Of a stretch of 64,000 nucleotides of DNA, positions 24,773-59,150 are shown one piece after another. This stretch comes from Siphonodentalium dalli (lineage: Eukaryota > Mollusca > Scaphopoda > Gadilida > Siphonodentaliidae). The first letter of the stretch is position 1; the number at the start of each line of letters is the position of its first letter. The position numbers were made by a program, and so were the translations under genes. The notes beneath the pieces are model-generated. The model saw nothing but the letters and a program-made list of their open reading frames with translations. It was not told the DNA's origin and ran no database searches. The DNA lies in contig CP136065.1 of assembly GCA_032622095.1 (NCBI GenBank), forward strand, positions 247,315,474 through 247,379,473. Direction: 5' to 3'.

Positions 24773-24780
24773 GTGTATCA

Positions 24781-25514: not shown

Positions 25515-25589
25515 ATACTAGAATTTATAGTAAAATTCACATAATTAATGCTATTAAAGTAGAACCTGAAAAAATAATATTGAGGAATT

Positions 25590-26105: not shown

Positions 26106-26139
26106 AAAATCACTTCTTATGATTTATAACTTTCCCACA

Positions 26140-29881: not shown

Positions 29882-30383
29882 CACCATAGTATGGTACACA
29901 TAGTGTCGACATCCGGATTGACCACTCGTTGTCTGTCTGTGACTGTCCGTCTGTCAGTCCGTAGACATTTACGCATAATGTGATAACTGAAACAGTTTCT
30001 ATCTGATCGGAACCAAATTTGGTATGTGAGTTCTCAGCCCAAACTACAGATCGAGTTCGAATATGGGTTTGATCCGAGTAGAGTTATGGCCCTTTTTCGA
30101 CTTCACGGATGCTACAATAACTAAAAAATAATTTATCTCATCAGAACCAAATTTGGTATGTGAGTTTCTCAGCCCAAAATAAAGATCAAGTTCGAATATG
30201 GGTTTGATTCGATTTATTTTAAAGGAGTTATGACCCTTTTTTCGAAGAAAAAAAGAATAAATTTATACTTTTTTTAGATCGAACTTCTAACAAAAAAATA
30301 TTATAAAAAAAAAATATATATATATTTTATAATAAAAAAAAATTGAATAATAATAAAACAAATGTTCATTGACACTTTCATTT
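29882..30383 (+). mobile_element. Dispersed element with two internal ~130-bp repeats
   Basis: It begins at the palindrome ACCATAGTATGGT, then a GTCTGTCTGTGACTGTCCGT-type leader. Next come two tandem copies containing GAACCAAATTTGGTATGTGA and GTTCGAATATGGGTTTGAT. It ends TGTTCATTGACACTTTCATTT. The 3' signature is shared with the 12592-13733 and 14791-16982 elements despite unrelated interiors. Confidence 0.6.
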
Positions 30384-33300: not shown

Positions 33301-33460
33301 ACAGTATCCTTTACTTACCAACGTCATAGCACACAGATCCACCAGCATCATAGCAAATTAGCAGTACCTGATGCACTTAACCAGGGGTGGAAACTAAAGC
33401 CAATATAGAATTCAGTGTATTGTTCACTCGCCTAATATCAAAGTCAGCCAGCATTAAAAT
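30384..33460. other. Long non-coding stretch
   Basis: AT-rich, with no long open frame and no RNA gene recognised. The only repeat signals are 32180-32310 (inverted partner of 25590-25745) and the motif near 32810. Confidence 0.45.
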
Positions 33461-35772: not shown

Positions 35773-37289
35773 CTGTCTAAGATGTGATTATGTAGTATTA
35801 TTAAAATATTATTTCCATAGCCCTTTAATGTTTTCAGGCTCCTGATAAGAATTAATCAGTTTCCAAACATCATTTTTGATTTTATTCAATGTATCTTATG
35901 ATATTGAATTAAGTTTGGCCACATTTGACGAAGGTAGAGAACCTTCTCAGAAATTAACGACCAGAAATGCATAGTTTGAGATATAGGGCAGGTGTGGGGT
36001 AAGGCAGGAGAAACTGTATGTGACTGAAAACTTATAAACAACAGTTTTCTGTCTGAGATGAGGTTCTAAAGGAATCTGAAATGTCTGGGTCCATTAATTA
36101 TTTTACATCATTGCCATAGCCCTTAACGTAAAAAGTAGGGCAAGTCTCGGCTCCCAAATCTGTGAAAATCATGTTTCAGCCTTGAGATACAAAATTATCA
36201 GTCTCCAAACTCTTGTTTTGATTGTATTCATTGTATCTCATCATCTTGAATTAAGTTTGACTACAATTGACCAAGGTAGATTCCTATGTCTATTCTCTGA
36301 AATTGATAACCAGAAATGCATATTTTGAGGTACATATGCAAGTGTGTAGTAAGACAGGAGAAACTTGGTCTTCTTCCTTAAGTCACACTGTATGCTGCTC
36401 AAAACTTCTAAAGAACTATCTGAGATATGGTTCCAAAAGACTATGGGAAGACTGGGTCCACAAATGGTTTTATATTATTGCCATGGTTCTCAATATAAAA
36501 GGTAGGGCAGCATGTTTTCAGTCTCTTAATAAGAATTCATCAGTTTCCAAACCTCTGTTTTGATTTTATTCATTGTATCTCATCATATATAATTAAGTTT
36601 GATCACAATTGACAAAGGGAGAGACCATTCTCAGAAATTGATTACCAAATATGCATATGTTGAGGTACAGCATGTGTGGGGTACGGCAGGAGAAACTTGG
36701 TCTCCTTGCCTCCAGTCACTCCGTATAAGGCTACAAACTTCTAAAGAACTGTCTCATATGTGATTCTAAAGTATTATTAAAAGTTTAATTCTGTTAATGA
36801 TTTTATGTTATTCCCATAGCCCTTTAATGTTTCCAGGCTTCTGCTCAGCATTTAACAGTTTCCAAACATATGTTTTGATATTATTCATTGTATCTCATGA
36901 TATTGAATTAAGTTTGACCACATTTGACCAAGGTAGAGACCATTCCCATAAATTAATGACAAGAATTGCATAGTTTGAGGTATAGGGCTGGTGTGGGATA
37001 AGTTAGGGGAAACAGTAGGGCATCCCAAATCTGAAAATTCATGTTATCAGCCCCAGATAATAATTTATCAGTCTCCACTCTCCAAACCTCAATTTTGATT
37101 TTATTCATTGTATTGTATCTCATCATATTGAAATAAATTTGGTCATGATTGAACAGGACCACCGACAGAAATTATTGACCAGAAATCCATATTTTGAGCT
37201 AGGGCAGGTGTGGGGTAAAGCAGACCGGGAGGGCCTGGTCGCCTTGATTTTAATCACTATATTTGTGTCTAAATACTTCTGATACTTCC

Positions 37290-37718
37290 TTACATATATT
37301 CTCACGTTACTGGTCCATTTGAACTTATAGAGCCTTCTGAAGAAGTATTTTATTTGCATGTGTCTTAGCTTCGTGGATTTTAAGGTACAAAGTCACGAAG
37401 CTGATGCACATTTGTTTATTGGCGGGGATGGGTTAATTATTTCACGTAATATGGGAAGGAAACATCTTTGGATAGTCTTAACTGATATATATGTACAATG
37501 AAACCTCTAGTTGGGGTGGCCAAATACTTCAACTTTGGCTGCAGAGCATGTCACGAAGCTGCGGCACATCCCGTTGACGGCCTATTGTGGGTTAATGTGT
37601 CCATATGATATGGCAAAGACGTGATTTCTGATAGCTCGTTATATGTCTTTCAACGTTGCTGGTCAAATTAAGCTTTTATTTTCCATGTAGAGGCTGAAAA
37701 GGAATGATTTGATAGGTG
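37290..37718. repeat. Left edge of satellite array, diverged unit
   Basis: One diverged 380-type unit. It carries TAGCTTCGTGGATTTTAAGG in place of the standard hairpin loop and lacks the 20-bp local duplication of CACGAAGCTAAAGCACATGC present in the regular units. Edge units of tandem arrays commonly diverge. Confidence 0.75.
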
Positions 37719-37770
37719 TGTGCTTTAGCTTCGTGCCTTTTAAGGTACAAAGCCACGAAGCTAAAGCACA
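37719..37770. repeat. Per-unit hairpin of the satellite (example in first unit)
   Basis: TGTGCTTTAGCTTCGTG and its exact complement CACGAAGCTAAAGCACA are separated by 18 bases that include the palindrome CCTTTTAAGG. It is present in essentially every unit. Two further CACGAAGCT(AAA/GCG)GCACA motifs lie ~160-180 bp downstream in each 380-bp unit. Confidence 0.9.
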
Positions 37771-40700
37771 TTTGGTTATAACCGGGAATGGGTTAATTAT
37801 TTCACGTAATATGGGAAGGAAACATCTTTGGGTAGTCTTAACTGATATATATGTACAATGAAACCTCCAGTTAGGGTGGCCAAATACTTCAACTTTGGCT
37901 GCAGAGCATGTCACGAAGCTAAAGCACATGCCACGAAGCTGCGGCACATCCCGTTGACGGCCTGTTGTGGGTTAATGTGTCCACATGATATGGCAAAGAC
38001 GTGATTTCTGATAGCTCGTTATATGTCTTTCAACGTTGCTGGTCAAATTAAGCTTTTATTTTCCATGTAGAGGCTGAAAAGGAATGATTTGATAGGTGTG
38101 TGCTTTAGCTTCGTGCCTTTTAAGGTACAAAGCCACGAAGCTAAAGCACATTTGGTTATAACCGGGAATGGGTTAATTATTTCACGTAATATGGGAAGGA
38201 AACATCTTTGGGTAGTCTTAACTGATATATATGTACAATGAAACCTCCAGTTAGGGTGGCCAAATACTTCAACTTTGGCTGCAGAGCATGTCACGAAGCT
38301 AAAGCACATGCCACGAAGCTGCGGCACATCCCGTTGACGGCCTGTTGTGGGTTAATGTGTCCACATGATATGGCAAAGACGTGATTTCTGATAGCTCGTT
38401 ATATGTCTTTCAACGTTGCTGGTCAAATTAAGCTTTTATTTTCCATGTAGAGGCTGAAAAGGAATGATTTGATAGGTGTGTGCTTTAGCTTCGTGCCTTT
38501 TAAGGTACAAAGCCACGAAGCTAAAGCACATTTGGTTATAACCGGGGATGGGTTAATTATTTCACGTAATATGGGAAGGAAACATCTTTGGGTAGTCTTA
38601 ACTGATATATATGTACAATGAAACCTCCAGTTAGGGTGGCCAAATACTTCAACTTTGGCTGCAGAGCATGCCACGAAGCTAAAGCACATGCCACGAAGCT
38701 GCGGCACATCCCGTTGACGGCCTGTTGTGGGTTAATGTGTCCACATGATATGGCAAAGACGTGATTTCTGATAGCTCGTTATATGTCTTTCAACGTTGCT
38801 GGTCAAATTAAGCTTTTATTTTCCATGTAGAGGCTGAAAAGGAATGATTTGATAGGTGTGTGCTTTAGCTTCGTGCCTTTTAAGGTACAAAGCCACGAAG
38901 CTAAAGCACATTTGGTTATAACCGGGGATGGGTTAATTATTTCACGTAATATGGGAAGGAAACATCTTTGGATAGTCTTAACAGATATATATGTACAATG
39001 AAACCTCCAGTTAGGGTGGCCAAATACTTCAACTTTGGCTGCAGAGCATGTCACGAAGCTAAAGCACATGCCACGAAGCTGCGGCACATCCCGTTGTCGG
39101 CCTGTTGTGGGTTAATGTGTCCATATCATATGGCAAGGACGTGATTTCTGATAGCTCGTTATATGTCTTTCAACGTTGCTGGTCAAATTAAGCTTTTATT
39201 TTCCATGTAGAGGCTGAAAAGGAATGATTTGATAGGTGTGTGCTTTAGCTTCGTGCCTTTTAAGGTACAAAGCCACGAAGCTAAAGCACATTTGGTTATA
39301 ACCGGGGATGGGTTAATTATTTCACGTAATATGGGAAGGAAACATCTTTGGGTAGTCTTAACTGATATATATGTACAATGAAACCTCCAGTTAGGGTGGC
39401 CAAATACTTCAACTTTGGCTGCAGAGCATGCCACGAAGCTAAAGCACATGCCACGAAGCTGCGGCACATCCCGTTGACGGCCTGTTGTGGGTTAATGTGT
39501 CCACATGATATGGCAAAGACGTGATTTCTGATAGCTCGTTATATGTCTTTCAACGTTGCTGGTCAAATTAAGCTTTTATTTTCCATGTAGAGGCTGAAAA
39601 GGAATGATTTGATAGGTGTGTGCTTTAGCTTCGTGCCTTTTAAGGTACAAAGCCACGAAGCTAAAGCACATTTGGTTATAACCGGGGATGGGTTAATTAT
39701 TTCACGTAATATGGGAAGGAAACATCTTTGGATAGTCTTAACAGATATATATGTACAATGAAACCTCCAGTTAGGGTGGCCAAATACTTCAACTTTGGCT
39801 GCAGAGCATGCCACGAAGCTAAAGCACATGCCACGAAGCTGCGGCACATCCCGTTGACGGCCTGTTGTGGGTTAATGTGTCCACATGATATGGCAAAGAC
39901 GTGATTTCTGATAGCTCGTTATATGTCTTTCAACGTTGCTGGTCAAATTAAGCTTTTATTTTCCATGTAGAGGCTGAAAAGGAATGATTTGATAGGTGTG
40001 TGCTTTAGCTTCGTGCCTTTTAAGGTACAAAGCCACGAAGCTAAAGCACATTTGGTTATAACCGGGAATGGGTTAATTATTTCACGTAATATGGGAAGGA
40101 AACATCTTTGGGTAGTCTTAACTGATATATATGTACAATGAAACCTCCAGTTAGGGTGGCCAAATACTTCAACTTTGGCTGCAGAGCATGTCACGAAGCT
40201 AAAGCACATGCCACGAAGCTGCGGCACATCCCGTTGTCGGCCTGTTGTGGGTTAATGTGTCCATATGATATGGCAAAGACGTGATTTCTGATAGCTCGTT
40301 ATATGTCTTTCAACGTTGCTGGTCAAATTAAGCTTTTATTTTCCATGTAGAGGCTGAAAAGGAATGATTTGATAGGTGTGTGCTTTAGCTTCGTGCCTTT
40401 TAAGGTACAAAGCCACGAAGCTAAAGCACATTTGGTTATAACCGGGAATAGGTTAATTATTTCACGTAATATGGGAAGGAAACATCTTTGGGTAGTCTTA
40501 ACTGATATATATGTACAATGAAACCTCCAGTTAGGGTGGCCAAATACTTCAACTTTGGCTGCAGAGCATGTCACGAAGCTAAAGCACATGCCACGAAGCT
40601 GCGGCACATCCCGTTGACGGCCTGTTGTGGGTTAATGTGTCCACATGATATGGCAAAGACGTGATTTCTGATAGCTCGTTATATGTCTTTCAACGTTGCT

Positions 40701-42252
40701 GGTCAAATTAAGCTTTTATTTTCCATGTAGAGGCTGAAAAGGAATGATTTGATAGGTGTGTGCTTTAGCTTCGTGCCTTTTAAGGTACAAAGCCACGAAG
40801 CTAAAGCACATTTGGTTATAACCGGGGATGGGTTAATTATTTGACGTAGTTTGGGAAGGAAATATCATTGGATAGTCTTAATTGATATGTATCTATAATA
40901 AAAAGTCAAGTTGTAGTCACTAAATACTTGAAATATGGTTATAAAGCAATATGTGCTTGAGCTTCGTGCCTTTTAAGGTACAAAGCCACGAAGCTAAAGC
41001 ACATTTGGTTATAACCGGGAATAGGTTAATTATTTCACGTAATATGGGAAGGAAACATCTTTGGATAGTCTTAACTGATATATATGTACAAAGAAACCTC
41101 TAGTTGGGGTGGCCAAATACTTCAAATTTGGCTGCAGAGCATATCACGAAGCTAAAGCACATGCCACGAAGCTGCGGCACATCCCGTTGTCGGCCTGTTG
41201 TGGGTTAATGTGTCCATATGATATGGCAAAGACGTGATTTCTGATAGCTCGTTATATGTCTTTCAACGTTGCTGGTCAAATTAAGCTTTTATTTTCCATG
41301 TAGAGGCTGAAAAGGAATGATTTGATAGGTGTGTGCTTTAGCTTCGTGCCTTTTAAGGTACAAAGCCACGAAGCTAAAGCACATTTGGTTATAACCGGGA
41401 ATGGGTTAATTATTTCACGTAATATGGGAAGGAAACATCTTTGGGTAGTCTTAACTGATATATATGTACAATGAAACCTCCAGTTAGGGTGGCCAAATAC
41501 TTCAACTTTGGCTGCAGAGCATGTCACGAAGCTAAAGCACATGCCACGAAGCTGCGGCACATCCCGTTGACGGCCTGTTGTGGGTTAATGTGTCCACATG
41601 ATATGGCAAAGACGTGATTTCTGATAGCTCGTTATATGTCTTTCAACGTTGCTGGTCAAATTAAGCTTTTATTTTCCATGTAGAGGCTGAAAAGGAATGA
41701 TTTGATAGGTGTGTGCTTTAGCTTCGTGCCTTTTAAGGTACAAAGCCACGAAGCTAAAGCACATTTGGTTATAACCGGGGATGGGTTAATTATTTCACGT
41801 AATATGGGAAGGAAACATCTTTGGGTAGTCTTAACTGATATATATGTACAATGAAACCTCCAGTTAGGGTGGCCAAATACTTCAACTTTGGCTGCAGAGC
41901 ATGCCACGAAGCTAAAGCACATGCCACGAAGCTGCGGCACATCCCGTTGACGGCCTGTTGTGGGTTAATGTGTCCACATGATATGGCAAAGACGTGATTT
42001 TTTATAGCTCGTTATATGTCTTTCAACGTTGCTGGTCAAATTAAGCTTTTATTTTCCATGTAGAGGCTGAAAAGGAATGATTTGATAGGTGTGTGCTTTA
42101 GCTTCGTGCCTTTTAAGGTACAAAGCCACGAAGCTAAAGCACATTTGGTTATAACCGGGGATGGGTTAATTATTTGACGTAGTTTGGGAAGGAAATATCA
42201 TTGGATAGTCTTAATTGATATGTATCTATAATAAAAAGTCAAGTTGTAGTCA

Positions 42253-45200
42253 CTAAATACTTGAAATATGGTTATAAAGCAATATGTGCTTGAGCTTCGT
42301 GCCTTTTAAGGTACAAAGCCACGAAGCTAAAGCACATTTGGTTATAACCGGGGATGGGTTAATTATTTCACGTAATATGGGAAGGAAACATCTTTGGGTA
42401 GTCTTAACTGATATATATGTACAATGAAACCTCCAGTTAGGGTGGCCAAATACTTCAACTTTGGCTGCAGAGCATGTCACGAAGCTAAAGCACATGCCAC
42501 GAAGCTGCGGCACATCCCGTTGACGGCCTGTTGTGGGTTAATGTGTCCACATGATATGGCAAAGACGTGATTTCTGATAGCTCGTTATATGTCTTTCAAC
42601 GTTGCTGGTCAAATTAAGCTTTTATGTTCCATGTAGAGGCTGAAAAGGAATGATTTGATAGGTGTGTGCTTTAGCTTCGTGCCTTTTAAGGTACAAAGCC
42701 ACGAAGCTAAAGCACATTTGGTTATAACCGGGGATGGGTTAATTATTTCACGTAATATGGGAAGGAAACATTTTTGGATAGTATTAACAGATATATATGT
42801 ACAATGAAACCTCCAGTTAGGGTGGCCAAATACTTCAACTTTGGCTGCAGAGCATGTCACGAAGCTAAAGCACATGCCACGAAGCTGCGGCACATCCCGT
42901 TGTCGGCCTGTTGTGGGTTAATGTGTCCATATGATATGGCAAAGACGTGATTCCTGATAGCTCGTTATATGTCTTTCAACGTTGCTGGTCAAATTAAGCT
43001 TTTATTTTCCATGTAGAGGCTGAAAAGGAATGATTTGATAGGTGTGTGCTTTAGCTTCGTGCCTTTTAAGGTACAAAGCCACGAAGCTAAAGCACATTTG
43101 GTTATAACCGGGAATAGGTTAATTATTTCACGTAATATGGGAAGGAAACATCTTTAGATAGTCTTAACAGATATATATGTACAATGAAACCTCAAGTTAG
43201 GGTGGCCAAATACTTCAACTTTGGCTGCAGAGCATGTCACGAAGCTAAAGCACATGCCACGAAGCTGCGGCACATCCCGTTGTCGGCCTGTTGTGGGTTA
43301 ATGTGTCCACATGATATGGCAAAGACGTGATTTCTGATAGCTCGTTATATGTCTTTCAACGTTGCTGGTCAAATTAAGCTTTTATTTTCCATGTAGAGGC
43401 TGAAAAGGAATGATTTGATAGGTGTGTGCTTTAGCTTCGTGCCTTTTAAGGTACAAAGCCACGAAGCTAAAGCACATTTGGTTATAACCGGGAATGGGTT
43501 AATTATTTCACGTAATATGGGAAGGAAACATCTTTGGGTAGTCTTAACTGATATATATGTACAATGAAACCTCCAGTTAGGGTGGCCAAATACTTCAACT
43601 TTGGCTGCAGAGCATGTCACGAAGCTAAAGCACATGCCACGAAGCTGCGGCACATCCCGTTGTCGGCCTGTTGTGGGTTAATGTGTCCATATGATATGGC
43701 AAAGACGTGATTCCTGATAGCTCGTTATATGTCTTTCAACGTTGCTGGTCAAATTAAGCTTTTATTTTCCATGTAGAGGCTGAAAAGGAATGATTTGATA
43801 GGTGTGTGCTTTAGCTTCGTGCCTTTTAAGGTACAAAGCCACGAAGCTAAAGCACATTTGGTTATAACCGGGAATAGGTTAATTATTTCACGTAATATGG
43901 GAAGGAAACATCTTTAGATAGTCTTAACAGATATATATGTACAATGAAACCTCAAGTTAGGGTGGCCAAATACTTCAACTTTGGCTGCAGAGCATGTCAC
44001 GAAGCTAAAGCACATGCCACGAAGCTGCGGCACATCCCGTTGTCGGCCTGTTGTGGGTTAATGTGTCCACATGATATGGCAAAGACGTGATTTCTGATAG
44101 CTCGTTATATGTCTTTCAACGTTGCTGGTCAAATTAAGCTTTTATTTTCCATGTAGAGGCTGAAAAGGAATGATTTGATAGGTGTGTGCTTTAGCTTCGT
44201 GCCTTTTAAGGTACAAAGCCACGAAGCTAAAGCACATTTGGTTATAACCGGGAATGGGTTAATTATTTCACGTAATATGGGAAGGAAACATCTTTGGGTA
44301 GTCTTAACTGATATATATGTACAATGAAACCTCCAGTTAGGGTGGCCAAATACTTCAACTTTGGCTGCAGAGCATGTCACGAAGCTAAAGCACATGCCAC
44401 GAAGCTGCGGCACATCCCGTTGACGGCCTGTTGTGGGTTAATGTGTCCACATGATATGGCAAAGACGTGATTTCTGATAGCTCGTTATATGTCTTTCAAC
44501 GTTGCTGGTCAAATTAAGCTTTTATTTTCCATGTAGAGGCTGAAAAGGAATGATTTGATAGGTGTGTGCTTTAGCTTCGTGCCTTTTAAGGTACAAAGCC
44601 ACGAAGCTAAAGCACATTTGGTTATAACCGGGGATGGGTTAATTATTTCACGTAATATGGGAAGGAAACATCTTTGGGTAGTCTTAACTGATATATATGT
44701 ACAATGAAACCTCCAGTTAGGGTGGCCAAATACTTCAACTTTGGCTGCAGAGCATGCCACGAAGCTAAAGCACATGCCACGAAGCTGCGGCACATCCCGT
44801 TGACGGCCTGTTGTGGGTTAATGTGTCCACATGATATGGCAAAGACGTGATTTCTGATAGCTCGTTATATGTCTTTCAACGTTGCTGGTCAAATTAAGCT
44901 TTTATTTTCCATGTAGAGGCTGAAAAGGAATGATTTGATAGGTGTGTGCTTTAGCTTCGTGCCTTTTAAGGTACAAAGCCACGAAGCTAAAGCACATTTG
45001 GTTATAACCGGGGATGGGTTAATTATTTGACGTAGTTTGGGAAGGAAATATTATTGGATAGTCTTAATTGATATGTATCTATAATAAAAAGTCAAGTTGT
45101 AGTCACTAAATACTTGAAATATGGTTATAAAGCAATATGTGCTTGAGCTTCGTGCCTTTTAAGGTACAAAGCCACGAAGCTAAAGCACATTTGGTTATAA

Positions 45201-48200
45201 CCGGGGATGGGTTAATTATTTCACGTAATATGGGAAGGAAACATCTTTGGGTAGTCTTAACTGATATATATGTACAATGAAACCTCCAGTTAGGGTGGCC
45301 AAATACTTCAACTTTGGCTGCAGAGCATGTCACGAAGCTAAAGCACATGCCACGAAGCTGCGGCACATCCCGTTGACGGCCTGTTGTGGGTTAATGTGTC
45401 CACATGATATGGCAAAGACGTGATTTCTGATAGCTCGTTATATGTCTTTCAACGTTGCTGGTCAAATTAAGCTTTTATTTTCCATGTAGAGGCTGAAAAG
45501 GAATGATTTGATAGGTGTGTGCTTTAGCTTCGTGCCTTTTAAGGTACAAAGCCACGAAGCTAAAGCACATTTGGTTATAACCGGGGATGGGTTAATTATT
45601 TGACGTAGTTTGGGAAGGAAATATCATTGGATAGTCTTAATTGATATGTATCTATAATAAAAAGTCAAGTTGTAGTCACTAAATACTTGAAATATGGTTA
45701 TAAAGCAATATGTGCTTGAGCTTCGTGCCTTTTAAGGTACAAAGCCACGAAGCTAAAGCACATTTGGTTATAACCGGGGATGGGTTAATTATTTCACGTA
45801 ATATGGGAAGGAAACATCTTTGGGTAGTCTTAACTGATATATATGTACAATGAAACCTCCAGTTAGGGTGGCCAAATACTTCAACTTTGGCTGCAGAGCA
45901 TGTCACGAAGCTAAAGCACATGCCACGAAGCTGCGGCACATCCCGTTGACGGCCTGTTGTGGGTTAATGTGTCCACATGATATGGCAAAGACGTGATTTC
46001 TGATAGCTCGTTATATGTCTTTCAACGTTGCTGGTCAAATTAAGCTTTTATGTTCCATGTAGAGGCTGAAAAGGAATGATTTGATAGGTGTGTGCTTTAG
46101 CTTCGTGCCTTTTAAGGTACAAAGCCACGAAGCTAAAGCACATTTGGTTATAACCGGGGATGGGTTAATTATTTCACGTAATATGGGAAGGAAACATTTT
46201 TGGATAGTATTAACAGATATATATGTACAATGAAACCTCCAGTTAGGGTGGCCAAATACTTCAACTTTGGCTGCAGAGCATGTCACGAAGCTAAAGCACA
46301 TGCCACGAAGCTGCGGCACATCCCGTTGTCGGCCTGTTGTGGGTTAATGTGTCCATATGATATGGCAAAGACGTGATTCCTGATAGCTCGTTATATGTCT
46401 TTCAACGTTGCTGGTCAAATTAAGCTTTTATTTTCCATGTAGAGGCTGAAAAGGAATGATTTGATAGGTGTGTGCTTTAGCTTCGTGCCTTTTAAGGTAC
46501 AAAGCCACGAAGCTAAAGCACATTTGGTTATAACCGGGAATAGGTTAATTATTTCACGTAATATGGGAAGGAAACATCTTTAGATAGTCTTAACAGATAT
46601 ATATGTACAATGAAACCTCAAGTTAGGGTGGCCAAATACTTCAACTTTGGCTGCAGAGCATGTCACGAAGCTAAAGCACATGCCACGAAGCTGCGGCACA
46701 TCCCGTTGTCGGCCTGTTGTGGGTTAATGTGTCCACATGATATGGCAAAGACGTGATTTCTGATAGCTCGTTATATGTCTTTCAACGTTGCTGGTCAAAT
46801 TAAGCTTTTATTTTCCATGTAGAGGCTGAAAAGGAATGATTTGATAGGTGTGTGCTTTAGCTTCGTGCCTTTTAAGGTACAAAGCCACGAAGCTAAAGCA
46901 CATTTGGTTATAACCGGGAATGGGTTAATTATTTCACGTAATATGGGAAGGAAACATCTTTGGGTAGTCTTAACTGATATATATGTACAATGAAACCTCC
47001 AGTTAGGGTGGCCAAATACTTCAACTTTGGCTGCAGAGCATGTCACGAAGCTAAAGCACATGCCACGAAGCTGCGGCACATCCCGTTGTCGGCCTGTTGT
47101 GGGTTAATGTGTCCATATGATATGGCAAAGACGTGATTCCTGATAGCTCGTTATATGTCTTTCAACGTTGCTGGTCAAATTAAGCTTTTATTTTCCATGT
47201 AGAGGCTGAAAAGGAATGATTTGATAGGTGTGTGCTTTAGCTTCGTGCCTTTTAAGGTACAAAGCCACGAAGCTAAAGCACATTTGGTTATAACCGGGAA
47301 TAGGTTAATTATTTCACGTAATATGGGAAGGAAACATCTTTAGATAGTCTTAACAGATATATATGTACAATGAAACCTCAAGTTAGGGTGGCCAAATACT
47401 TCAACTTTGGCTGCAGAGCATGTCACGAAGCTAAAGCACATGCCACGAAGCTGCGGCACATCCCGTTGTCGGCCTGTTGTGGGTTAATGTGTCCACATGA
47501 TATGGCAAAGACGTGATTTCTGATAGCTCGTTATATGTCTTTCAACGTTGCTGGTCAAATTAAGCTTTTATTTTCCATGTAGAGGCTGAAAAGGAATGAT
47601 TTGATAGGTGTGTGCTTTAGCTTCGTGCCTTTTAAGGTACAAAGCCACGAAGCTAAAGCACATTTGGTTATAACCGGGAATGGGTTAATTATTTCACGTA
47701 ATATGGGAAGGAAACATCTTTGGGTAGTCTTAACTGATATATATGTACAATGAAACCTCCAGTTAGGGTGGCCAAATACTTCAACTTTGGCTGCAGAGCA
47801 TGTCACGAAGCTAAAGCACATGCCACGAAGCTGCGGCACATCCCGTTGACGGCCTGTTGTGGGTTAATGTGTCCACATGATATGGCAAAGACGTGATTTC
47901 TGATAGCTCGTTATATGTCTTTCAACGTTGCTGGTCAAATTAAGCTTTTATTTTCCATGTAGAGGCTGAAAAGGAATGATTTGATAGGTGTGTGCTTTAG
48001 CTTCGTGCCTTTTAAGGTACAAAGCCACGAAGCTAAAGCACATTTGGTTATAACCGGGGATGGGTTAATTATTTCACGTAATATGGGAAGGAAACATCTT
48101 TGGGTAGTCTTAACTGATATATATGTACAATGAAACCTCCAGTTAGGGTGGCCAAATACTTCAACTTTGGCTGCAGAGCATGCCACGAAGCTAAAGCACA

Positions 48201-49104
48201 TGCCACGAAGCTGCGGCACATCCCGTTGACGGCCTGTTGTGGGTTAATGTGTCCACATGATATGGCAAAGACGTGATTTCTGATAGCTCGTTATATGTCT
48301 TTCAACGTTGCTGGTCAAATTAAGCTTTTATTTTCCATGTAGAGGCTGAAAAGGAATGATTTGATAGGTGTGTGCTTTAGCTTCGTGCCTTTTAAGGTAC
48401 AAAGCCACGAAGCTAAAGCACATTTGGTTATAACCGGGGATGGGTTAATTATTTGACGTAGTTTGGGAAGGAAATATTATTGGATAGTCTTAATTGATAT
48501 GTATCTATAATAAAAAGTCAAGTTGTAGTCACTAAATACTTGAAATATGGTTATAAAGCAATATGTGCTTGAGCTTCGTGCCTTTTAAGGTACAAAGCCA
48601 CGAAGCTAAAGCACATTTGGTTATAACCGGGGATGGGTTAATTATTTCACGTAATATGGGAAGGAAACATCTTTGGGTAGTCTTAACTGATATATATGTA
48701 CAATGAAACCTCCAGTTAGGGTGGCCAAATACTTCAACTTTGGCTGCAGAGCATGTCACGAAGCTAAAGCACATGCCACGAAGCTGCGGCACATCCCGTT
48801 GACGGCCTGTTGTGGGTTAATGTGTCCACATGATATGGCAAAGACGTGATTTCTGATAGCTCGTTATATGTCTTTCAACGTTGCTGGTCAAATTAAGCTT
48901 TTATGTTCCATGTAGAGGCTGAAAAGGAATGATTTGATAGGTGTGTGCTTTAGCTTCGTGCCTTTTAAGGTACAAAGCCACGAAGCTAAAGCACATTTGG
49001 TTATAACCGGGGATGGGTTAATTATTTCACGTAATATGGGAAGGAAACATCTTTGGATAGTATTAACAGATATATATGTACAATGAAACCTCCAGTTAGG
49101 GTGG
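42253..49104. repeat. Higher-order repeat, two copies of 3426 bp
   Basis: The order of unit variants at 42253-45678 (193-bp unit, NTIQ-type unit, a unit with a stop, and so on) repeats with a 3426-bp shift at 45679-49104. The only differences seen are a few substitutions. 3426 equals eight 380-bp units plus two 193-bp units. Confidence 0.75.
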
Positions 49105-52100
49105 CCAAATACTTCAACTTTGGCTGCAGAGCATGTCACGAAGCTAAAGCACATGCCACGAAGCTGCGGCACATCCCGTTGTCGGCCTGTTGTGGGTTAA
49201 TGTGTCCATATGATATGGCAAAGACGTGATTCCTGATAGCTCGTTATATGTCTTTCAACGTTGCTGGTCAAATTAAGCTTTTATTTTCCATGTAGAGGCT
49301 GAAAAGGAATGATTTGATAGGTGTGTGCTTTAGCTTCGTGCCTTTTAAGGTACAAAGCCACGAAGCTAAAGCACATTTGGTTATAACCGGGAATAGGTTA
49401 ATTATTTCACGTAATATGGGAAGGAAACATCTTTAGATAGTCTTAACAGATATATATGTACAATGAAACCTCAAGTTAGGGTGGCCAAATACTTCAACTT
49501 TGGCTGCAGAGCATGTCACGAAGCTAAAGCACATGCCACGAAGCTGCGGCACATCCCGTTGTCGGCCTGTTGTGGGTTAATGTGTCCACATGATATGGCA
49601 AAGACGTGATTTCTGATAGCTCGTTATATGTCTTTCAACGTTGCTGGTCAAATTAAGCTTTTATTTTCCATGTAGAGGCTGAAAAGGAATGATTTGATAG
49701 GTGTGTGCTTTAGCTTCGTGCCTTTTAAGGTACAAAGCCACGAAGCTAAAGCACATTTGGTTATAACCGGGGATGGGTTAATTATTTCACGTAATATGGG
49801 AAGGAAACATCTTTGGATAGTATTAACAGATATATATGTACAATGAAACCTCCAGTTAGGGTGGCCAAATACTTCAACTTTGGCTGCAGAGCATGTCACG
49901 AAGCTAAAGCACATGCCACGAAGCTGCGGCACACCCCGTTGTCGGCCTGTTGTGGGTTAATGTGTCCATATGATATGGCAAAGACATGATTCCTGATAGC
50001 TCGTTATATGTCTTTCAACGTTGCTGGTCAAATTAAGCTTTTATTTTCCATGTAGAGGCTGAAAATGAATGATTTGATAGGTGTGTGCTTTAGCTTCGTG
50101 CCTTTTAAGGTACAAAGCCACGAAGCTAAAGCACATTTGGTTATAACCGGGAATAGGTTAATTATTTCACGTAATATGGGAAGGAAACATCTTTGGGTAG
50201 TCTTAACTGATATATATGTACAATGAAACCTCCAGTTAGGGTGGCCAAATACTTCAACTTTGGCTGCAGAGCATGCCACGAAGCTAAAGCACATGCCACG
50301 AAGCTGCGGCACATCCCGTTGACGGCCTGTTGTGGGTTAATGTGTCCACATGATATGGCAAAGACGTGATTTCTGATAGCTCGTTATATGTCTTTCAACG
50401 TTGCTGGTCAAATTAAGCTTTTATTTTCCATGTAGAGGCTGAAAAGGAATGATTTGATAGGTGTGTGCTTTAGCTTCGTGCCTTTTAAGGTACAAAGCCA
50501 CGAAGCTAAAGCACATTTGGTTATAACCGGGGATGGGTTAATTATTTGACATAGTTTGGGAAGGAAATATCATTGGATAGTCTTAATTGATATGTATCTA
50601 TAATAAAAAGTCAAGTTGTAGTCACTAAATACTTGAAATATGGTTATAAAGCAATATGTGCTTGAGCTTCGTGCCTTTTAAGGTACAAAGCCACGAAGCT
50701 AAAGCACATTTGGTTATAACCGGGGATGGGTTAATTATTTCACGTAATATGGGAAGGAAACATCTTTGGGTAGTCTTAACTGATATATATGTACAATGAA
50801 ACCTCCAGTTAGGGTGGCCAAATACTTCAACTTTGGCTGCAGAGCATGTCACGAAGCTAAAGCACATGCCACGAAGCTGCGGCACATCCCGTTGACGGCC
50901 TGTTGTGGGTTAATGTGTCCACATGATATGGCAAAGACGTGATTTCTGATAGCTCGTTATATGTCTTTCAACGTTGCTGGTCAAATTAAGCTTTTATGTT
51001 CCATGTAGAGGCTGAAAAGGAATGATTTGATAGGTGTGTGCTTTAGCTTCGTGCCTTTTAAGGTACAAAGCCACGAAGCTAAAGCACATTTGGTTATAAC
51101 CGGGGATGGGTTAATTATTTCACGTAATATAGGAAGGAAACATCTTTGGATAGTATTAACAGATATATATGTACAATGAAACCTCCAGTTAGGGTGGCCA
51201 AATACTTCAACTTTGGCTGCAGAGCATGTCACGAAGCTAAAGCACATGCCACGAAGCTGCGGCACATCCCGTTGTCGGCCTGTTGTGGGTTAATGTGTCC
51301 ACATGATATGGCAAAGACGTGATTTCTGATAGCTCGTTATATGTCTTTCAACGTTGCTGGTCAAATTAAGCTTTTATTTTCCATGTAGAGGCTGAAAAGG
51401 AATGATTTGATAGGTGTGTGCTTTAGCTTCGTGCCTTTTAAGGTACAAAGCCACGAAGCTAAAGCACATTTGGTTATAACCGGGAATGGGTTAATTATTT
51501 CACGTAATATGGGAAGGAAACATCTTTGGGTAGTCTTAACTGATATATATGTACAATGAAACCTCCAGTTAGGGTGGCCAAATACTTCAACTTTGGCTGC
51601 AGAGCATGTCACGAAGCTAAAGCACATGCCACGAAGCTGCGGCACATCCCGTTGACGGCCTGTTGTGGGTTAATGTGTCCACATGATATGGCAAAGACGT
51701 GATTTCTGATAGCTCGTTATATGTCTTTCAACGTTGCTGGTCAAATTAAGCTTTTATTTTCCATGTAGAGGCTGAAAAGGAATGATTTGATAGGTGTGTG
51801 CTTTAGCTTCGTGCCTTTTAAGGTACAAAGCCACGAAGCTAAAGCACATTTGGTTATAACCGGGGATGGGTTAATTATTTCACGTAATATGGGAAGGAAA
51901 CATCTTTGGGTAGTCTTAACTGATATATATGTACAATGAAACCTCCAGTTAGGGTGGCCAAATACTTCAACTTTGGCTGCAGAGCATGCCACGAAGCTAA
52001 AGCACATGCCACGAAGCTGCGGCACATCCCGTTGACGGCCTGTTGTGGGTTAATGTGTCCACATGATATGGCAAAGACGTGATTTCTGATAGCTCGTTAT

Positions 52101-55100
52101 ATGTCTTTCAACGTTGCTGGTCAAATTAAGCTTTTATTTTCCATGTAGAGGCTGAAAAGGAATGATTTGATAGGTGTGTGCTTTAGCTTCGTGCCTTTTA
52201 AGGTACAAAGCCACGAAGCTAAAGCACATTTGGTTATAACCGGGGATGGGTTAATTATTTGACGTAGTTTGGGAAGGAAATATCATTGGATAGTCTTAAT
52301 TGATATGTATCTATAATAAAAAGTCAAGTTGTAGTCACTAAATACTTGAAATATGGTTATAAAGCAATATGTGCTTGAGCTTCGTGCCTTTTAAGGTACA
52401 AAGCCACGAAGCTAAAGCACATTTGGTTATAACCGGGTATGGGTTAATTATTTCACGTAATATGGGAAGGAAACATCTTTGGGTAGTCTTAACTGATATA
52501 TATGTACAATGAAACCTCCAGTTAGGGTGGCCAAATACTTCAACTTTGGCTGCAGAGCATGTCACGAAGCTAAAGCACATGCCACGAAGCTGCGGCACAT
52601 CCCGTTGACGGCCTGTTGTGGGTTAATGTGTCCACATGATATGGCAAAGACGTGATTTCTGATAGCTCGTTATATGTCTTTCAACGTTGCTGGTCAAATT
52701 AAGCTTTTATGTTCCATGTAGAGGCTGAAAAGGAATGATTTGATAGGTGTGTGCTTTAGCTTCGTGCCTTTTAAGGTACAAAGCCACGAAGCTAAAGCAC
52801 ATTTGGTTATAACCGGGGATGGGTTAATTATTTCACGTAATATGGGAAGGAAACATCTTTGGATAGTATTAACAGATATATATGTACAATGAAACCTCCA
52901 GTTAGGGTGGCCAAATACTTCAACTTTGGCTGCAGAGCATGTCACGAAGCTAAAGCACATGCCACGAAGCTGCGGCACATCCCGTTGTCGGCCTGTTGTG
53001 GGTTAATGTGTCCATATGATATGGCAAAGACGTGATTCCTGATAGCTCGTTATATGTCTTTCAACGTTGCTGGTCAAATTAAGCTTTTATTTTCCATGTA
53101 GAGGCTGAAAAGGAATGATTTGATAGGTGTGTGCTTTAGCTTCGTGCCTTTTAAGGTACAAAGCCACGAAGCTAAAGCACATTTGGTTATAACCGGGAAT
53201 AGGTTAATTATTTCACGTAATATGGGAAGGAAACATCTTTAGATAGTCTTAACAGATATATATGTACAATGAAACCTCAAGTTAGGGTGGCCAAATACTT
53301 CAACTTTGGCTGCAGAGCATGTCACGAAGCTAAAGCACATGCCACGAAGCTGCGGCACATCCCGTTGTCGGCCTGTTGTGGGTTAATGTGTCCACATGAT
53401 ATGGCAAAGACGTGATTTCTGATAGCTCGTTATATGTCTTTCAACGTTGCTGGTCAAATTAAGCTTTTATTTTCCATGTAGAGGCTGAAAAGGAATGATT
53501 TGATAGGTGTGTGCTTTAGCTTCGTGCCTTTTAAGGTACAAAGCCACGAAGCTAAAGCACATTTGGTTATAACCGGGGATGGGTTAATTATTTCACGTAA
53601 TATGGGAAGGAAACATCTTTGGATAGTATTAACAGATATATATGTACAATGAAACCTCCAGTTAGGGTGGCCAAATACTTCAACTTTGGCTGCAGAGCAT
53701 GTCACGAAGCTAAAGCACATGCCACGAAGCTGCGGCACACCCCGTTGTCGGCCTGTTGTGGGTTAATGTGTCCATATGATATGGCAAAGACATGATTCCT
53801 GATAGCTCGTTATATGTCTTTCAACGTTGCTGGTCAAATTAAGCTTTTATTTTCCATGTAGAGGCTGAAAATGAATGATTTGATAGGTGTGTGCTTTAGC
53901 TTCGTGCCTTTTAAGGTACAAAGCCACGAAGCTAAAGCACATTTGGTTATAACCGGGAATAGGTTAATTATTTCACGTAATATGGGAAGGAAACATCTTT
54001 GGGTAGTCTTAACTGATATATATGTACAATGAAACCTCCAGTTAGGGTGGCCAAATACTTCAACTTTGGCTGCAGAGCATGCCACGAAGCTAAAGCACAT
54101 GCCACGAAGCTGCGGCACATCCCGTTGACGGCCTGTTGTGGGTTAATGTGTCCACATGATATGGCAAAGACGTGATTTCTGATAGCTCGTTATATGTCTT
54201 TCAACGTTGCTGGTCAAATTAAGCTTTTATTTTCCATGTAGAGGCTGAAAAGGAATGATTTGATAGGTGTGTGCTTTAGCTTCGTGCCTTTTAAGGTACA
54301 AAGCCACGAAGCTAAAGCACATTTGGTTATAACCGGGGATGGGTTAATTATTTGACATAGTTTGGGAAGGAAATATCATTGGATAGTCTTAATTGATATG
54401 TATCTATAATAAAAAGTCAAGTTGTAGTCACTAAATACTTGAAATATGGTTATAAAGCAATATGTGCTTGAGCTTCGTGCCTTTTAAGGTACAAAGCCAC
54501 GAAGCTAAAGCACATTTGGTTATAACCGGGGATGGGTTAATTATTTCACGTAATATGGGAAGGAAACATCTTTGGGTAGTCTTAACTGATATATATGTAC
54601 AATGAAACCTCCAGTTAGGGTGGCCAAATACTTCAACTTTGGCTGCAGAGCATGTCACGAAGCTAAAGCACATGCCACGAAGCTGCGGCACATCCCGTTG
54701 ACGGCCTGTTGTGGGTTAATGTGTCCACATGATATGGCAAAGACGTGATTTCTGATAGCTCGTTATATGTCTTTCAACGTTGCTGGTCAAATTAAGCTTT
54801 TATGTTCCATGTAGAGGCTGAAAAGGAATGATTTGATAGGTGTGTGCTTTAGCTTCGTGCCTTTTAAGGTACAAAGCCACGAAGCTAAAGCACATTTGGT
54901 TATAACCGGGGATGGGTTAATTATTTCACGTAATATAGGAAGGAAACATCTTTGGATAGTATTAACAGATATATATGTACAATGAAACCTCCAGTTAGGG
55001 TGGCCAAATACTTCAACTTTGGCTGCAGAGCATGTCACGAAGCTAAAGCACATGCCACGAAGCTGCGGCACATCCCGTTGTCGGCCTGTTGTGGGTTAAT

Positions 55101-55160
55101 GTGTCCATATGATATGGCAAAGACGTGATTCCTGATAGCTCGTTATATGTCTTTCAACGT
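48532..55160. repeat. Higher-order repeat with 3806-bp period, ~1.75 copies
   Basis: Variants at 48532-52337 recur 3806 bp later, including two rare marks: GAAAATGAATGATT at ~50061 and ~53867, and GACATAGTTTGGG at ~50548 and ~54354. The match stops after about 55160. 3806 equals nine 380-bp units plus two 193-bp units. Confidence 0.75.
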
Positions 55161-58100
55161 TGCTGGTCAAATTAAGCTTTTATTTTCCATGTAGAGGCTG
55201 AAAAGGAATGATTTGATAGGTGTGTGCTTTAGCTTCGTGCCTTTTAAGGTACAAAGCCACGAAGCTAAAGCACATTTGGTTATAACCGGGAATAGGTTAA
55301 TTATTTCACGTAATATGGGAAGGAAACATCTTTGGATAGTCTTAACAGATATATATGTACAATGAAACCTCCAGTTAGGGTGGCCAAATACTTCAACTTT
55401 GGCTGCAGAGCATGTCACGAAGCTAAAGCACATGCCACGAAGCTGCGGCACATCCCGTTGTCGGCCTGTTGTGGGTTAATGTGTCCACATGATATGGCAA
55501 AGACGTGATTTCTGATAGCTCGTTATATGTCTTTCAACGTTGCTGGTCAAATTAAGCTTTTATTTTCCATGTAGAGGCTGAAAAGGAATGATTTGATAGG
55601 TGTGTGCTTTAGCTTCGTGCCTTTTAAGGTACAAAGCCACGAAGCTAAAGCACATTTGGTTATAACCGGGGATGGGTTAATTATTTCACGTAATATGGGA
55701 AGGAAACATCTTTGGATAGTATTAACAGATATATATGTACAATGAAACCTCCAGTTAGGGTGGCCAAATATTTCAACTTTGGCTGCAGAGCATGTCACGA
55801 AGCTAAAGCACATGCCACGAAGCTGCGGCACACCCCGTTGTCGGCCTGTTGTGGGTTAATGTGTCCATATGATATGGCAAAGACGTGATTCCTGATAGCT
55901 CGTTATATGTCTTTCAACGTTGCTGGTCAAATTAAGCTTTTATTTTCCATGTAGAGGCTGAAAAGGAATGATTTGATAGGTGTGTGCTTTAGCTTCGTGC
56001 CTTTTAAGGTACAAAGCCACGAAGCTAAAGCACATTTGGTTATAACCGGGAATAGGCTAATTATTTCACGTAATATGGGAAGGAAACATCTTTGGATAGT
56101 CTTAACAGATATATATGTACAATGAAACCTCCAGTTAGGGTGGCCAAATACTTCAACTTTGGCTGCAGAGCATGTCACGAAGCTAAAGCACAAGCCACGA
56201 AGCTGCGGCACATCCCGTTGTCGGCCTGTTGTGGGTTAATGTGTCCACATGATATGGCAAAGACGTGATTTCTGATAGCTCGTTATATGTCTTTCAACGT
56301 TGCTGGTCAAATTAAGCTTTTATTTTCCATGTAGAGGCTGAAAAGGAATGATTTGATAGGTGTGTGCTTTAGCTTCGTGCCTTTTAAGGTACAAAGCCAC
56401 GAAGCTAAAGCACATTTGGTTATAACCGGGAATAGGTTAATTATTTCACGTAATATGGGAAGGAAACATCTTTGGGTAGTCTTAACTGATATATATGTAC
56501 AATGAAACCTCCAGTTAGGGTGGCCAAATACTTCAACTTTGGCTGCAGAGCATGTCACGAAGCTAAAGCACATGCCACGAAGCTGCGGCACATCCCGTTG
56601 ACGGCCTGTTGTGGGTTAATGTGTCCACATGATATGGCAAAGACGTGATTTCTGATAGCTCGTTATATGTCTTTCAACGTTGCTGGTCAAATTAAGCTTT
56701 TATTTTCCATGTAGAGGCTGAAAAGGAATGATTTGATAGGTGTGTGCTTTAGCTTCGTGCCTTTTAAGGTACAAAGCCACGAAGCTAAAGCACATTTGGT
56801 TATAACCGGGAATAGGTTAATTATTTCACGTAATATGGGAAGGAAACATCTTTGGGTAGTCTTAACTGATATATATGTACAATGAAACCTCCAGTTAGGG
56901 TGGCCAAATACTTCAACTTTGGCTGCAGAGCATGTCACGAAGCTAAAGCACATGCCACGAAGCTGCGGCACATCCCGTTGACGGCCTGTTGTGGGTTAAT
57001 GTGTCCACATGATATGGCAAAGACGTGATTTCTGATAGCTCGTTATATGTCTTTCAACGTTGCTGGTCAAATTAAGCTTTTATGTTCCATGTAGAGGCTG
57101 AAAAGGAATGATTTGATAGGTGTGTGCTTTAGCTTCGTGCCTTTTAAGGTACAAAGCCACGAAGCTAAAGCACATTTGGTTATAACCGGGGATGGGTTAA
57201 TTATTTCACGTAATATGGGAAGGAAACATCTTTGGATAGTATTAACAGATATATATGTACAATGAAACCTCCAGTTAGGGTGGCCAAATACTTCAACTTT
57301 GGCTGCAGAGCATGTCACGAAGCTAAAGCACATGCCACGAAGCTGCGGCACATCCCGTTGTCGGCCTGTTGTGGGTTAATGTGTCCACATGATATGGCAA
57401 AGACGTGATTTCTGATAGCTCGTTATATGTCTTTCAACGTTGCTGGTCAAATTAAGCTTTTATTTTCCATGTAGAGGCTGAAAATGAATGATTTGATAGG
57501 TCTGTGCTTTAGCTTCGTGCCTTTTAAGGTACAAAGCCACGAAGCTAAAGCACATTTGGTTATAACCGGGAATAGGTTAATTATTTCACGTAATATGGGA
57601 AGGAAACATCTTTGGGTAGTCTTAACTGATATATATGTACAATGAAACCTCCAGTTAGGGTGGCCAAATACTTCAACTTTGGCTGCAGAGCATGTCACGA
57701 AGCTAAAGCACATGCCACGAAGCTGCGGCACATCCCGTTGACGGCCTGTTGTGGGTTAATGTGTCCACATGATATGGCAAAGACGTGATTTCTGATAGCT
57801 CGTTATATGTCTTTCAACGTTGCTGGTCAAATTAAGCTTTTATTTTCCATGTAGAGGCTGAAAAGGAATGATTTGATAGGTGTGTGCTTTAGCTTCGTGC
57901 CTTTTAAGGTACAAAGCCACGAAGCTAAAGCACATTTGGTTATAACCGGGGATGGGTTAATTATTTCACGTAATATGGGAAGGAAACATCTTTGGATAGT
58001 CTTAACTGATATATATGTACAATGAAACCTCCAGTTAGGGTGGCCAAATACTTCAACTTTGGCTGCAGAGCATGTCACGAAGCTAAAGCACATGCCACGA

Positions 58101-58262
58101 AGCTGCGGCACATCCCGTTGTCGGCCTGTTGTGGGTTAATGTGTCCATATGATATGGCAAAGACGTGATTTCTGATAGCTCGTTATATGTCTTTCAACGT
58201 TGCTGGTCAAATTAAGCCTTTATTTTCCATGTAGAGGCTGAAAATGAATGATTTGATAGGTA

Positions 58263-58394
58263 TGTGCTTTAGCTTCGTGCCTTTTAAGGTACAAAGCCAC
58301 GAAGCTAAAGCACATTTGGTTATAACCGGGGATGGGTTAATTATTTGACGTAGTTTGGGAAGGAAACATCGTTGGATAGTCTTAACTGTTGTCG
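58263..58394. repeat. Truncated last satellite unit
   Basis: Starts with the standard hairpin, then matches the 193-bp variant (GACGTAGTTTGGG), and breaks off after ATAGTCTTAACTG. Confidence 0.8.
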
Positions 58395-58738
58395 GTAGCT
58401 GTGTGCATTTGTCTGGAATTAGAACACTAGTTGTTTGGGGGGGGGGGGGGCAATTGTCAGGTTAAAATATCTTAATGTTCTCATTCTGGGAAAATAGAAG
58501 CATGGCTTATGAATAGATAGGAAATTAGGCCTGAGCATGAGGTACAAGGGGGGAGGGGTGCAAATGGAATTATGCAAAAAGTTGTGTCGGTGTGATTCCG
58601 ACTCAAGGGGGGGGGGGGGGTGCAAAAAGTTGTGTTGGTGTGATTGCGACTCAAGGGGGGGGGGGTGCAGTTGGAAATTCCTAAGGTGGACACCCCCCCC
58701 CCCCAGCGGAGACCCTCTAGCCACATCCCTGCATGTGC
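58395..58738. repeat. G-tract insert splitting the satellite edge
   Basis: Non-satellite sequence with G runs at 58437-58450, 58607-58620 and 58655-58665 and a C run at 58693-58704. A ~48-bp unit (TGCAAAAAGTTGTGT...GACTCAA plus G-run) is repeated at 58573 and 58621. The runs could form G-quadruplexes. Proline- and glycine-rich open frames here are by-products of the homopolymers. Confidence 0.7.
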
Positions 58739-59090
58739 CTTAGCTTCGTGGCTTATAAGGTACAGATTTGTACATTAAAAGCTACGAAGCTAAAGCACAT
58801 TTGGTTATAACCGGGGATGGGTTAATTATATGACGTAGTTTGGGAATGAAACATCTTTGGATAGTCTTAACTGATACGTATCTATAATAAAACGTGTTGT
58901 TACGGTCCTCAAAAACTTGAAATACGCCCGTAAAGCATACATGTGCCTTAGCTTCGTGGTTTATAAGGTACAAAGCCACGAAGCTAAAGCCCATTTCAGT
59001 TTGTTTCTATCTGGACTGTACCACCATATCTTATTAGCATATTTTATATTGTGATTACTAATTAATGTGCCGCAGCTTCGTATCTTTTAG
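58739..59090. repeat. Decayed satellite units adjoining the synthetase gene
   Basis: Two diverged hairpins (TTAGCTTCGTGGCTTATAAGG at ~58740 and TTAGCTTCGTGGTTTATAAGG at ~58947) frame a 193-type body. A last isolated inverted motif, TGTGCCGCAGCTTCGT, is at 59066-59081. The decay gradient fits an old array edge. Confidence 0.8.
59080..59090 (+). promoter_or_regulatory. Candidate 3' splice site before the leader
   Basis: GTATCTTTTAG immediately before 59091 fits a splice acceptor, and the in-frame stop TAG at 59088-59090 forms its AG. If used, the upstream satellite edge would lie in a 5' intron. Not supported by anything beyond sequence. Confidence 0.25.
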
Positions 59091-59097
59091 CGATTAC

Positions 59098-59150
59098 CAA
59101 CGTGGTTAGTCGCTAATGAAATTAATCAACGTGGCCAGTCGCTGATGAAA
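59098..59150 (+). repeat. 29-bp tandem duplication carrying both upstream ATGs
   Basis: CAACGTGG(TT/CC)AGTCGCT(A/G)ATGAAA occurs at 59098 and 59127, an offset of 29 bp. The first copy supplies the ATG of a short upstream ORF, the second supplies the long-form start of the synthetase. Confidence 0.85.
59116..59145 (+). CDS. Upstream ORF, 9 codons, stop overlaps synthetase start
   Basis: The frame ATG AAA ... CGC TGA encodes nine residues. Its TGA shares the final A with the synthetase ATG (TGATG at 59143-59147), a layout suited to termination-reinitiation. Both ATGs have a weak context (C at -3). The uORF matters only if transcription begins upstream of 59116, which is not known. Leader control of the mitochondrial versus cytosolic form is documented for human GARS1; a parallel here is an inference. 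Confidence 0.4.

Follow-up and report, generated by a model that had tools for sequence, protein, structure and literature searches.

The 64,000-nucleotide stretch of the Siphonodentalium dalli genome analysed here (the window; C5:247315474-247379473, from a 2.23-Gb assembly of nine contigs) contains a satellite array of 21 kb, which adjoins the right end of a much longer sequence with relatives on other contigs. We describe the array, the element that carries it and the other copies of that element. We conclude that the array very probably forms part of the structure of a giant DNA transposon, apparently non-autonomous, whose terminal inverted repeats (TIRs) are short and imperfect and whose target duplications are 10 bp long; a MULE-type transposase acting in trans presumably serves the element. 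Features of the window are collected in Table 1; loci elsewhere are cited by contig and position (C1:112M) or by locus number (L014).

Array units were delimited by motif anchors, and tandem repeats were detected with Tandem Repeats Finder (TRF), which placed the 380-bp repeat at 37547-48515 and 45711-58388. The 380-bp repeat reported in the initial annotation is borne out by TRF from about 37.4 to 58.4 kb; the end point given there, 58262, was too early, as the structure runs to 59098. The array contains 50 A units (178 bp), 51 B units (202 bp) and eight C units (193 bp), all head to tail, with an additional 485-bp step at the right edge. One A and one B unit make up the 380-bp dimer. B units end in TGTGCTTTAGCTTCGTG and an 18-nt spacer and C units in TGTGCTTGAGCTTCGTG and an 18-nt spacer, followed in both by CACGAAGCTAAAGCACA. 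The hairpin formed in this way folds at -20.5 kcal/mol in the B form (z -7.15; 0 of 200 shuffles equally stable), and a 207-bp monomer form with a longer hairpin, present at some loci, folds at -30.1 kcal/mol (z -12.8; 0 of 200 shuffles). The A unit resembles a C unit minus the 35-bp left arm and the loop of the hairpin, and its 178-bp form has an additional 20-bp copy of the boundary. Between the array and the diverged edge copies, window 58418-58710 holds G/C homopolymer runs and a 48-bp duplication.

Table 1. Coordinates of features in the 64,000-nucleotide window
Feature	Position	Strand	Basis or remark
Right ~50.7 kb of giant TIR DNA transposon (very probable)	8374..59098	+	Match to C1:112M copy
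100-N assembly gap inside element	8274..8373	.	Window sequence
Satellite array, (A178-B202)n plus C193 units, 380-bp dimers	37359..58388	+	TRF, motif anchors
Left edge A monomer, 158 bp, without the 20-bp duplicated boundary	37394..37551	+	Motif anchors
Example 52-nt hairpin, 17-bp outer arms, recurring at B and C unit ends	37719..37770	.	DNA fold
First of eight C monomers	40794..40986	+	Others start at 42127, 44980, 45553, 48406, 50499, 52212, 54305
Block (AB)7C, 2,853 bp	42320..45172	+	100% identical to 45746-48598
Block (AB)7C, second copy	45746..48598	+	100% identical to first copy
Block (AB)5C, 2,093 bp	48599..50691	+	99.95% identical to 52405-54497
Block (AB)5C, second copy	52405..54497	+	99.95% identical to first copy
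Diverged right-edge monomers	58734..59000	+	Preceded by G-rich sequence, ~58389-58733; edge shared by C1, C7, C9 and C2 loci
Terminal 17-mer ACGAAGCTGCGGCACAT	59065..59081	-	48 exact copies in array, opposite strand
Right TIR, transposon end, GGTAATCGCTAAAAGATACGAAG read inward	59076..59098	-	Identity with eight other loci stops here, flanks differ
Expected 10-bp target site of window copy	59099..59108	+	Inferred from other copies; left partner outside window
Neighbouring intact single-exon gene outside element	59313..61346	+	Pfam HGTP_anticodon, WHEP-TRS, tRNA-synt_2b

The copy at C1:112M matches window 8374-12514, 12598-20450 and 25508-37300 at 98.7-99.6% identity as well as the right end, and window 9600-12000 is common to eight loci (the window included) at 96-100% identity. 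By comparison with the C1 copy, the window element lacks the left ~9.6 kb and the left end, lost at the assembly gap. The 8.3 kb to the left of the gap (window 1-8273) match neither the C1 copy (megablast) nor the flank of the paralogue of the neighbouring synthetase gene, and therefore the two sides may have been joined incorrectly or a large amount of sequence may be missing.

Right ends were found by a search with window 58700-59100. Identity of the matches to the window stops at 59098/59099, where eight other loci read ...CTTTTAGCGATTACC and then run into unrelated flanks. The left end, CGAAAACGCTAAAAGATACGAAG, was found at C1 and C9 and then in further copies; its core matches the right end, inverted, over 17 perfect bp, with about 60 columns aligned imperfectly, and the outermost bases of the two ends are asymmetric. 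Ends of this element are of the type CGCTAAAAGATACGAAG, and the TIR core has 42 genome matches with no more than one mismatch versus 5 for the reversed control. Perfect 10-bp target duplications flank six of the eight copies with both ends read (C1:112M, ACATTGCGCC; C9:144M, ATCACTCGAT; C1:99M, GTAGAAGGAC; C7:66M, TGCATGGGTG; C2:149M, GTGTATAGCC; C7:128M, CATCAAGAAC); that of C3:149M, CTAATCCG, is 8 bp long. An unoccupied paralogue of the C1 target, at C9:43.756M, represents the empty site: its match to the left flank is 300 bp long and 100% identical, its match to the right flank covers the initial 240 of 400 bp (99%), and the two overlap by exactly 10 bp. In the window copy, the left partner of the target site is expected to be AACGTGGTTA, before the left end. 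A second synthetase locus, C5:247.069M, is without the element; its alignment with the window starts at 59098 and reaches the end of the fetched piece (428 bp, 99.1%), with other sequence upstream of that start.

Copy sizes were determined from end coordinates, most copies having been read only in parts. The large copies span 56.3 kb (C1:112M), 56.6 kb (C1:99M), 58.6 kb (C7:66M), 64.0 kb (C9) and 73.4 kb (C2), and shorter ones 22.5 kb (C7:128M) and 6.3 kb (C3:149M). In all nine large or mid-size copies with the right end read (the window is one of them), the array adjoins that end; the first 9.6 kb of the C1 copy, counted from its left end, hold no array monomer. Array length ranges from about 2.5 kb in C7:128M to the 21 kb of the window; that of C2 is at least 20 kb, and that of C1:112M is interrupted by ~7.4 kb. 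The hairpin 23-mer has 490 matches (up to two mismatches) in the assembly and none for the reversed control, and all 100 matches listed of the 490 fall in three transposon copies. On C4 there is a relative of only 1,556 bp with both ends and, by reading of the sequence, alternating A- and B-like monomers at about 72-75% identity, some of them separated by other sequence. With forms of 1.6, 6.3, 22 and 56-73 kb, this one genome seems to show the element at successive stages of growth or shrinkage.

The right end and the array also share a motif. Read inward, the end is GGTAATCGCTAAAAGATACGAAGCTGCGGCACAT, and its terminal 17-mer, repeated through the array (Table 1), has 321 exact matches genome-wide (reversed control, 0), the 100 matches listed lying in three copies.

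The length of the target duplications and the architecture point to the MULE superfamily, whose 8-11 bp target duplications and terminal inverted repeats are both found here. A Mutator (MULE) type transposase supplied in trans would move the element. The array may have started in a short element as a duplication of subterminal sequence that includes the end motif, and would then have grown by unequal exchange. Each insertion would bring a ready-made array, later expanding, shrinking and homogenising locally, and the repeated motif may offer additional transposase-binding sites. If so, the locus illustrates a route by which a satellite can originate and spread within a TIR transposon, ready-made, insertion by insertion; the transposon that serves as the example is apparently non-autonomous, measures 56-73 kb, and has target duplications as well as an empty site.

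Several observations weigh against this interpretation. The C4 element, with both ends read, has no target duplication, and its right end is without the array motif; the right end of C5:129M has one mismatch to that motif and that of C3:149M matches it poorly. At C6:39.9M (L041), a further right end aligns for just 131 bp and lacks an adjacent array. A scan of ten open frames in the C1 copy turned up no transposase or remnant of one (shorter exons would escape), only reverse transcriptase pieces, probably from a long interspersed nuclear element (LINE); the left 40.6 kb of the copy have no stop-to-stop frame above 144 amino acids. Among 150 scored MULE-domain matches of 813 candidates, none lies in a copy, by reading of the list, and none, by eye, within tens of kb of a TIR-core match. 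No autonomous partner was found at the nine of 42 TIR-core matches examined (L040-L043 and L054-L058). The block duplications at 100% identity could in part be assembly errors.

Divergence among copies was estimated from 155 AB dimers (window, 50; C9, 24; C7:66M, 21; C2, 21; C1:99M, 19; C5:129M, 8; C1:112M, 5; C7:128M, 4; C3:149M, 3). Dimers of the seven young copies differ by 1.5-1.8% within and 1.5-2.0% between copies, by 3.9-4.0% from those of C5:129M and by about 13.6% from those of C3:149M, whose own three dimers differ by 22% and are possibly misaligned. At the right end, six young copies have 99.2-99.7% identity to the window. The similar divergence within and between copies fits arrays that travelled with the element. 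The nearest relative of a dimer lies in its own copy for 43/50 dimers in the window, 20/24 in C9, 13/21 in C7:66M, 13/21 in C2, 8/8 in C5:129M, 5/19 in C1:99M, 0/5 in C1:112M, 0/4 in C7:128M and 0/3 in C3:149M, and the high count for the window fits later, partial homogenisation at the locus. At C5:129.135-129.196 Mb (L003, L005-L007, L011, L012), the satellite is split among several blocks spread across 60 kb; monomers of 193 and 207 bp stand between its AB dimers, which are ~4% from those of young copies.

Within the window array, multi-unit blocks have been duplicated (Table 1), and the 50 AB dimers show 14 columns with a minor allele occurring at least three times, in haplotypes that recur in order. 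The eight C units differ from one another by 0-2 bases, and units 100% identical to the first are found at C1:112M (two) and C7:128M (one). The initial annotation took these units for the persisting single half of the dimer. They are near-identical and were multiplied inside multi-kb blocks; they are therefore not independent survivors of an ancestral monomer, and we rejected them as ancestral relics.

The same annotation had matched the 193-bp type to the first half of the dimer and considered the two halves homologous. A and C align over 145 bp with a score of 175, which 0 of 1000 dinucleotide shuffles equal, so the first match holds, and C is, judged by alignment, a diverged relative of A. 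GGGTTAAT is indeed present at a nearly equal offset in A and B, as is the quoted ATATGG match, but only 32 bp of the two consensuses align (TGGGTTAAT...ATATGG.AA.GA), and 11 of 1000 shuffles of the full units, or 10 of 1000 of the cores, do as well. In the shuffled-sequence control that had been named as a refuting test, the match of A to B is weaker than had been claimed.

A and B were also compared by profiles of monomers from other loci, from which 4 of 22 A representatives were removed, leaving 18. Two of the four were run-offs; the other two, chimeric, continued into B sequence, had B-profile scores of 22.0 and 22.8 and had also been part of the A profile. Against the A profile, where the top shuffle of 3000 reaches 4.2 bits, 8 of 15 B representatives score higher: six from L014-L016 at 14.3-20.7, aligned in one register across ~46 bp, another from L014 at 6.7 and a young one at 4.7. 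The remaining seven do not exceed 3.0. In the opposite direction, A representatives against the B profile, only 3 of 18 surpass the best of 3600 shuffles (9.4 bits). This reverse result is weaker than that of an earlier, now superseded run containing the chimeric rows, in which 9 of 20 A representatives (the two chimeric ones excluded) surpassed the best of 4400 shuffles (4.9 bits); in the forward comparison of that run, 6 of 15 B representatives lay above the top value of 5.5 bits among 3000 shuffles. The six strong B representatives carry GTTAYARCCGG as A does, which may reflect conversion from A. Including the common 18-bp boundary, the region shared by A and B is ~68 bp, and no alignment extends beyond it. 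Homology of the halves is thus likely over the first ~68 bp, mainly for older-type monomers. The A-B junction is present in the diverged copies L014 and L016, and the alternation at ~72-75% in the C4 element suggests that the pairing of A with B probably predates the giant forms. At C3:60M, C7:19M and C1:167M, B-like monomers repeat alone at steps of ~201-211 bp after a few A/C-like ones. The view of A and B as distant partial homologues with an old pairing is accordingly supported in part. What survives of the proposed birth of a satellite from a short unit is this partial homology and old pairing; the array is internal to a transposon and not a free satellite of the centromeric type.

Other explanations were weighed against a giant TIR transposon. 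An ordinary centromeric or heterochromatic satellite with ~190- and 380-bp units set by nucleosome spacing would explain the unit sizes of 178-207 and 380 bp, and higher-order blocks, present here, occur in alpha satellite. The ~10-bp AA/TT/TA periodicity of one dimer is weak and is reached by 32 of 1000 shuffles, which leaves the nucleosome-scale halves of the initial annotation suggestive only. This explanation is very unlikely given that the array sits in a transposon with ends and target duplications, that the hairpin motif has so few matches in 2.23 Gb, and that the copies are scattered, the one in the window adjoining an intact gene. Very long arrays on most chromosomes were not seen; assemblies can miss centromeres, as this one may, but the present data lend the centromere no support. 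Segmental duplication of a satellite-bearing region could produce stretches of kilobases to tens of kilobases at 96-99% identity on several chromosomes. It is highly improbable that it would also produce nine loci with identical termini, TIRs and 10-bp target duplications, and it was rejected on the empty site with its overlap of exactly 10 bp.

A true FoldBack element with long tandem-repeat TIRs, its left array lost, is rather unlikely. The monomer length, target-duplication size and sequence sharing between end and repeat are Tetris-like, the outermost bases are asymmetric as in Tm1, and the C4 element has satellite-like sequence from ~37 nt off its left end. That element is the exception, however: nine of ten other left ends continue as the non-satellite sequence of C1 over 60-150 nt. 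The strict FoldBack form was rejected because the left side of the C1 copy is without an array and the TIR alignment covers only ~60 columns. Size would also suit a Helitron, a Polinton/Maverick or another giant class, and Helitron-like elements commonly hold internal tandem repeats. Helitrons make no target duplication and have a 3' hairpin and a CTRR end, and Polintons/Mavericks have ~6-bp target duplications and coding genes. The 10-bp duplications and TIRs, together with the lack of any own coding capacity found, make such a class extremely unlikely; Helitrons were rejected on the duplications and the end ...GATTACC, and Polintons/Mavericks on the duplications and on the ten frames described above.

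Returning to a TIR transposon moved in trans, we found through one-mismatch TIR-core matches a sister family whose TIR core is nearly identical and whose end is GGTTACCGCTAATAGATACGAAGCTTCGGTACAT. Four of the 17 such matches were examined (L054-L057), with TRF run on L054, L055 and L057. A 353-bp unit lies near the sister end in 16.1 copies at L055 and 5.0 copies at L054; TRF found no 353-bp array at L057. The unit consensus (L055) has two direct copies of the family's own 17-mer, ACGAAGCTTCGGTACAT, and two GGTTAAT boxes, and its best local alignment to the AB dimer is only a 43-bp motif region. ACGAAGCTTCGGTACAT is absent from the window, and ACGAAGCTGCGGCACAT is absent from four 6-kb sister stretches. 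Genome-wide, ACGAAGCTTCGGTACAT has 2,593 matches (reversed control, 0); the 100 matches listed, all on C1, often come as two or three copies within ~1 kb, like a short dispersed element, and include a long array near C1:182.68M (C1:182.67-182.68 Mb). A third TIR relative, L043 (C9:69.27 Mb, from 1947), has a matching TIR core and AT-rich ~22-bp TGATATCA-type repeats, with no such satellite. Two families of the same layout, with repeat bodies that do not align and each repeating its own terminal 17-mer, are what repeated transposase-binding sites would predict. A further idea, which we offer tentatively and consider doubtful, is that the array is a functional and self-renewing set of terminal motifs, matched to the family's end by selection or conversion, that lets a trans-acting transposase move an unusually large non-coding cargo of 56-73 kb.

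The gene to the right of the element reads as a glycyl-tRNA synthetase (GARS), a putative name based on domains and gene length. It was rejected as cargo, since its ATG is 214 bp beyond the element end and the element-free paralogue aligns from that end on. The two intact single-exon synthetase genes (window 59313-61346 and C5:247069188-247071218) are ~305 kb apart and 99% identical, and two partial synthetase copies also lie within 0.5 Mb. Inside the element, window 12686-13615 and 15100-16751 hold other tandem arrays with a ~164-bp unit containing ...CAGCAGCCATCTTGGATTTTACTC..., and the sequence upstream of the second synthetase locus has related repeats too (L053:1-974). Window 20450-25508 differs in sequence from the C1 copy, where a remnant of a reverse transcriptase lies within the stretch or next to it.

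A literature search for a satellite-bearing giant TIR transposon returned nothing closer than Tetris, Tm1, Galileo and Rehavkus among the matches listed, which does not imply absence from print. In Tetris/TIR-220 of Drosophila virilis, the satellite grows out of a subterminal repeat that has sequence in common with the end, and additional transposase-binding sites are proposed (PMC4079207). Monomer length, target-duplication size and the sequence shared by end and repeat are similar here; Tetris, however, has its repeats inside long TIRs of up to 1.7 kb (PMC4079207), whereas the present element has an array at one end, a 17-bp TIR core, large copies of 56-73 kb, a 380-bp dimer with multi-kb blocks and an exact shared motif of 17 bp. 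Tm1, a Mutator/Foldback element of root-knot nematodes, likewise has asymmetric outermost motifs with TIRs inside them, target duplications of mostly 8-10 bp and members like miniature inverted-repeat transposable elements (PMC3169594). It differs in its composite TIRs of 13-15 bp repeats at both ends and in having known transposase-bearing members, and the available portion of that source describes no comparable ~190-bp satellite (PMC3169594). Rehavkus-1_TC of Tribolium also carries a satellite, the 164-bp TCsat23, in its DNA transposon ends, but it is 9.5 kb long, with the repeats in inverted termini and in runs of at most nine monomers (PMC10218199). Pack-MULEs and giant transposons are, similarly, non-autonomous TIR elements with other DNA aboard; relative to those reviewed (PMC6431247), the element here is ~8 times longer, and both its ends and its target duplications were observed. 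Against these known systems, its giant size, one-sided array and family-specific match between end and array are unusual.

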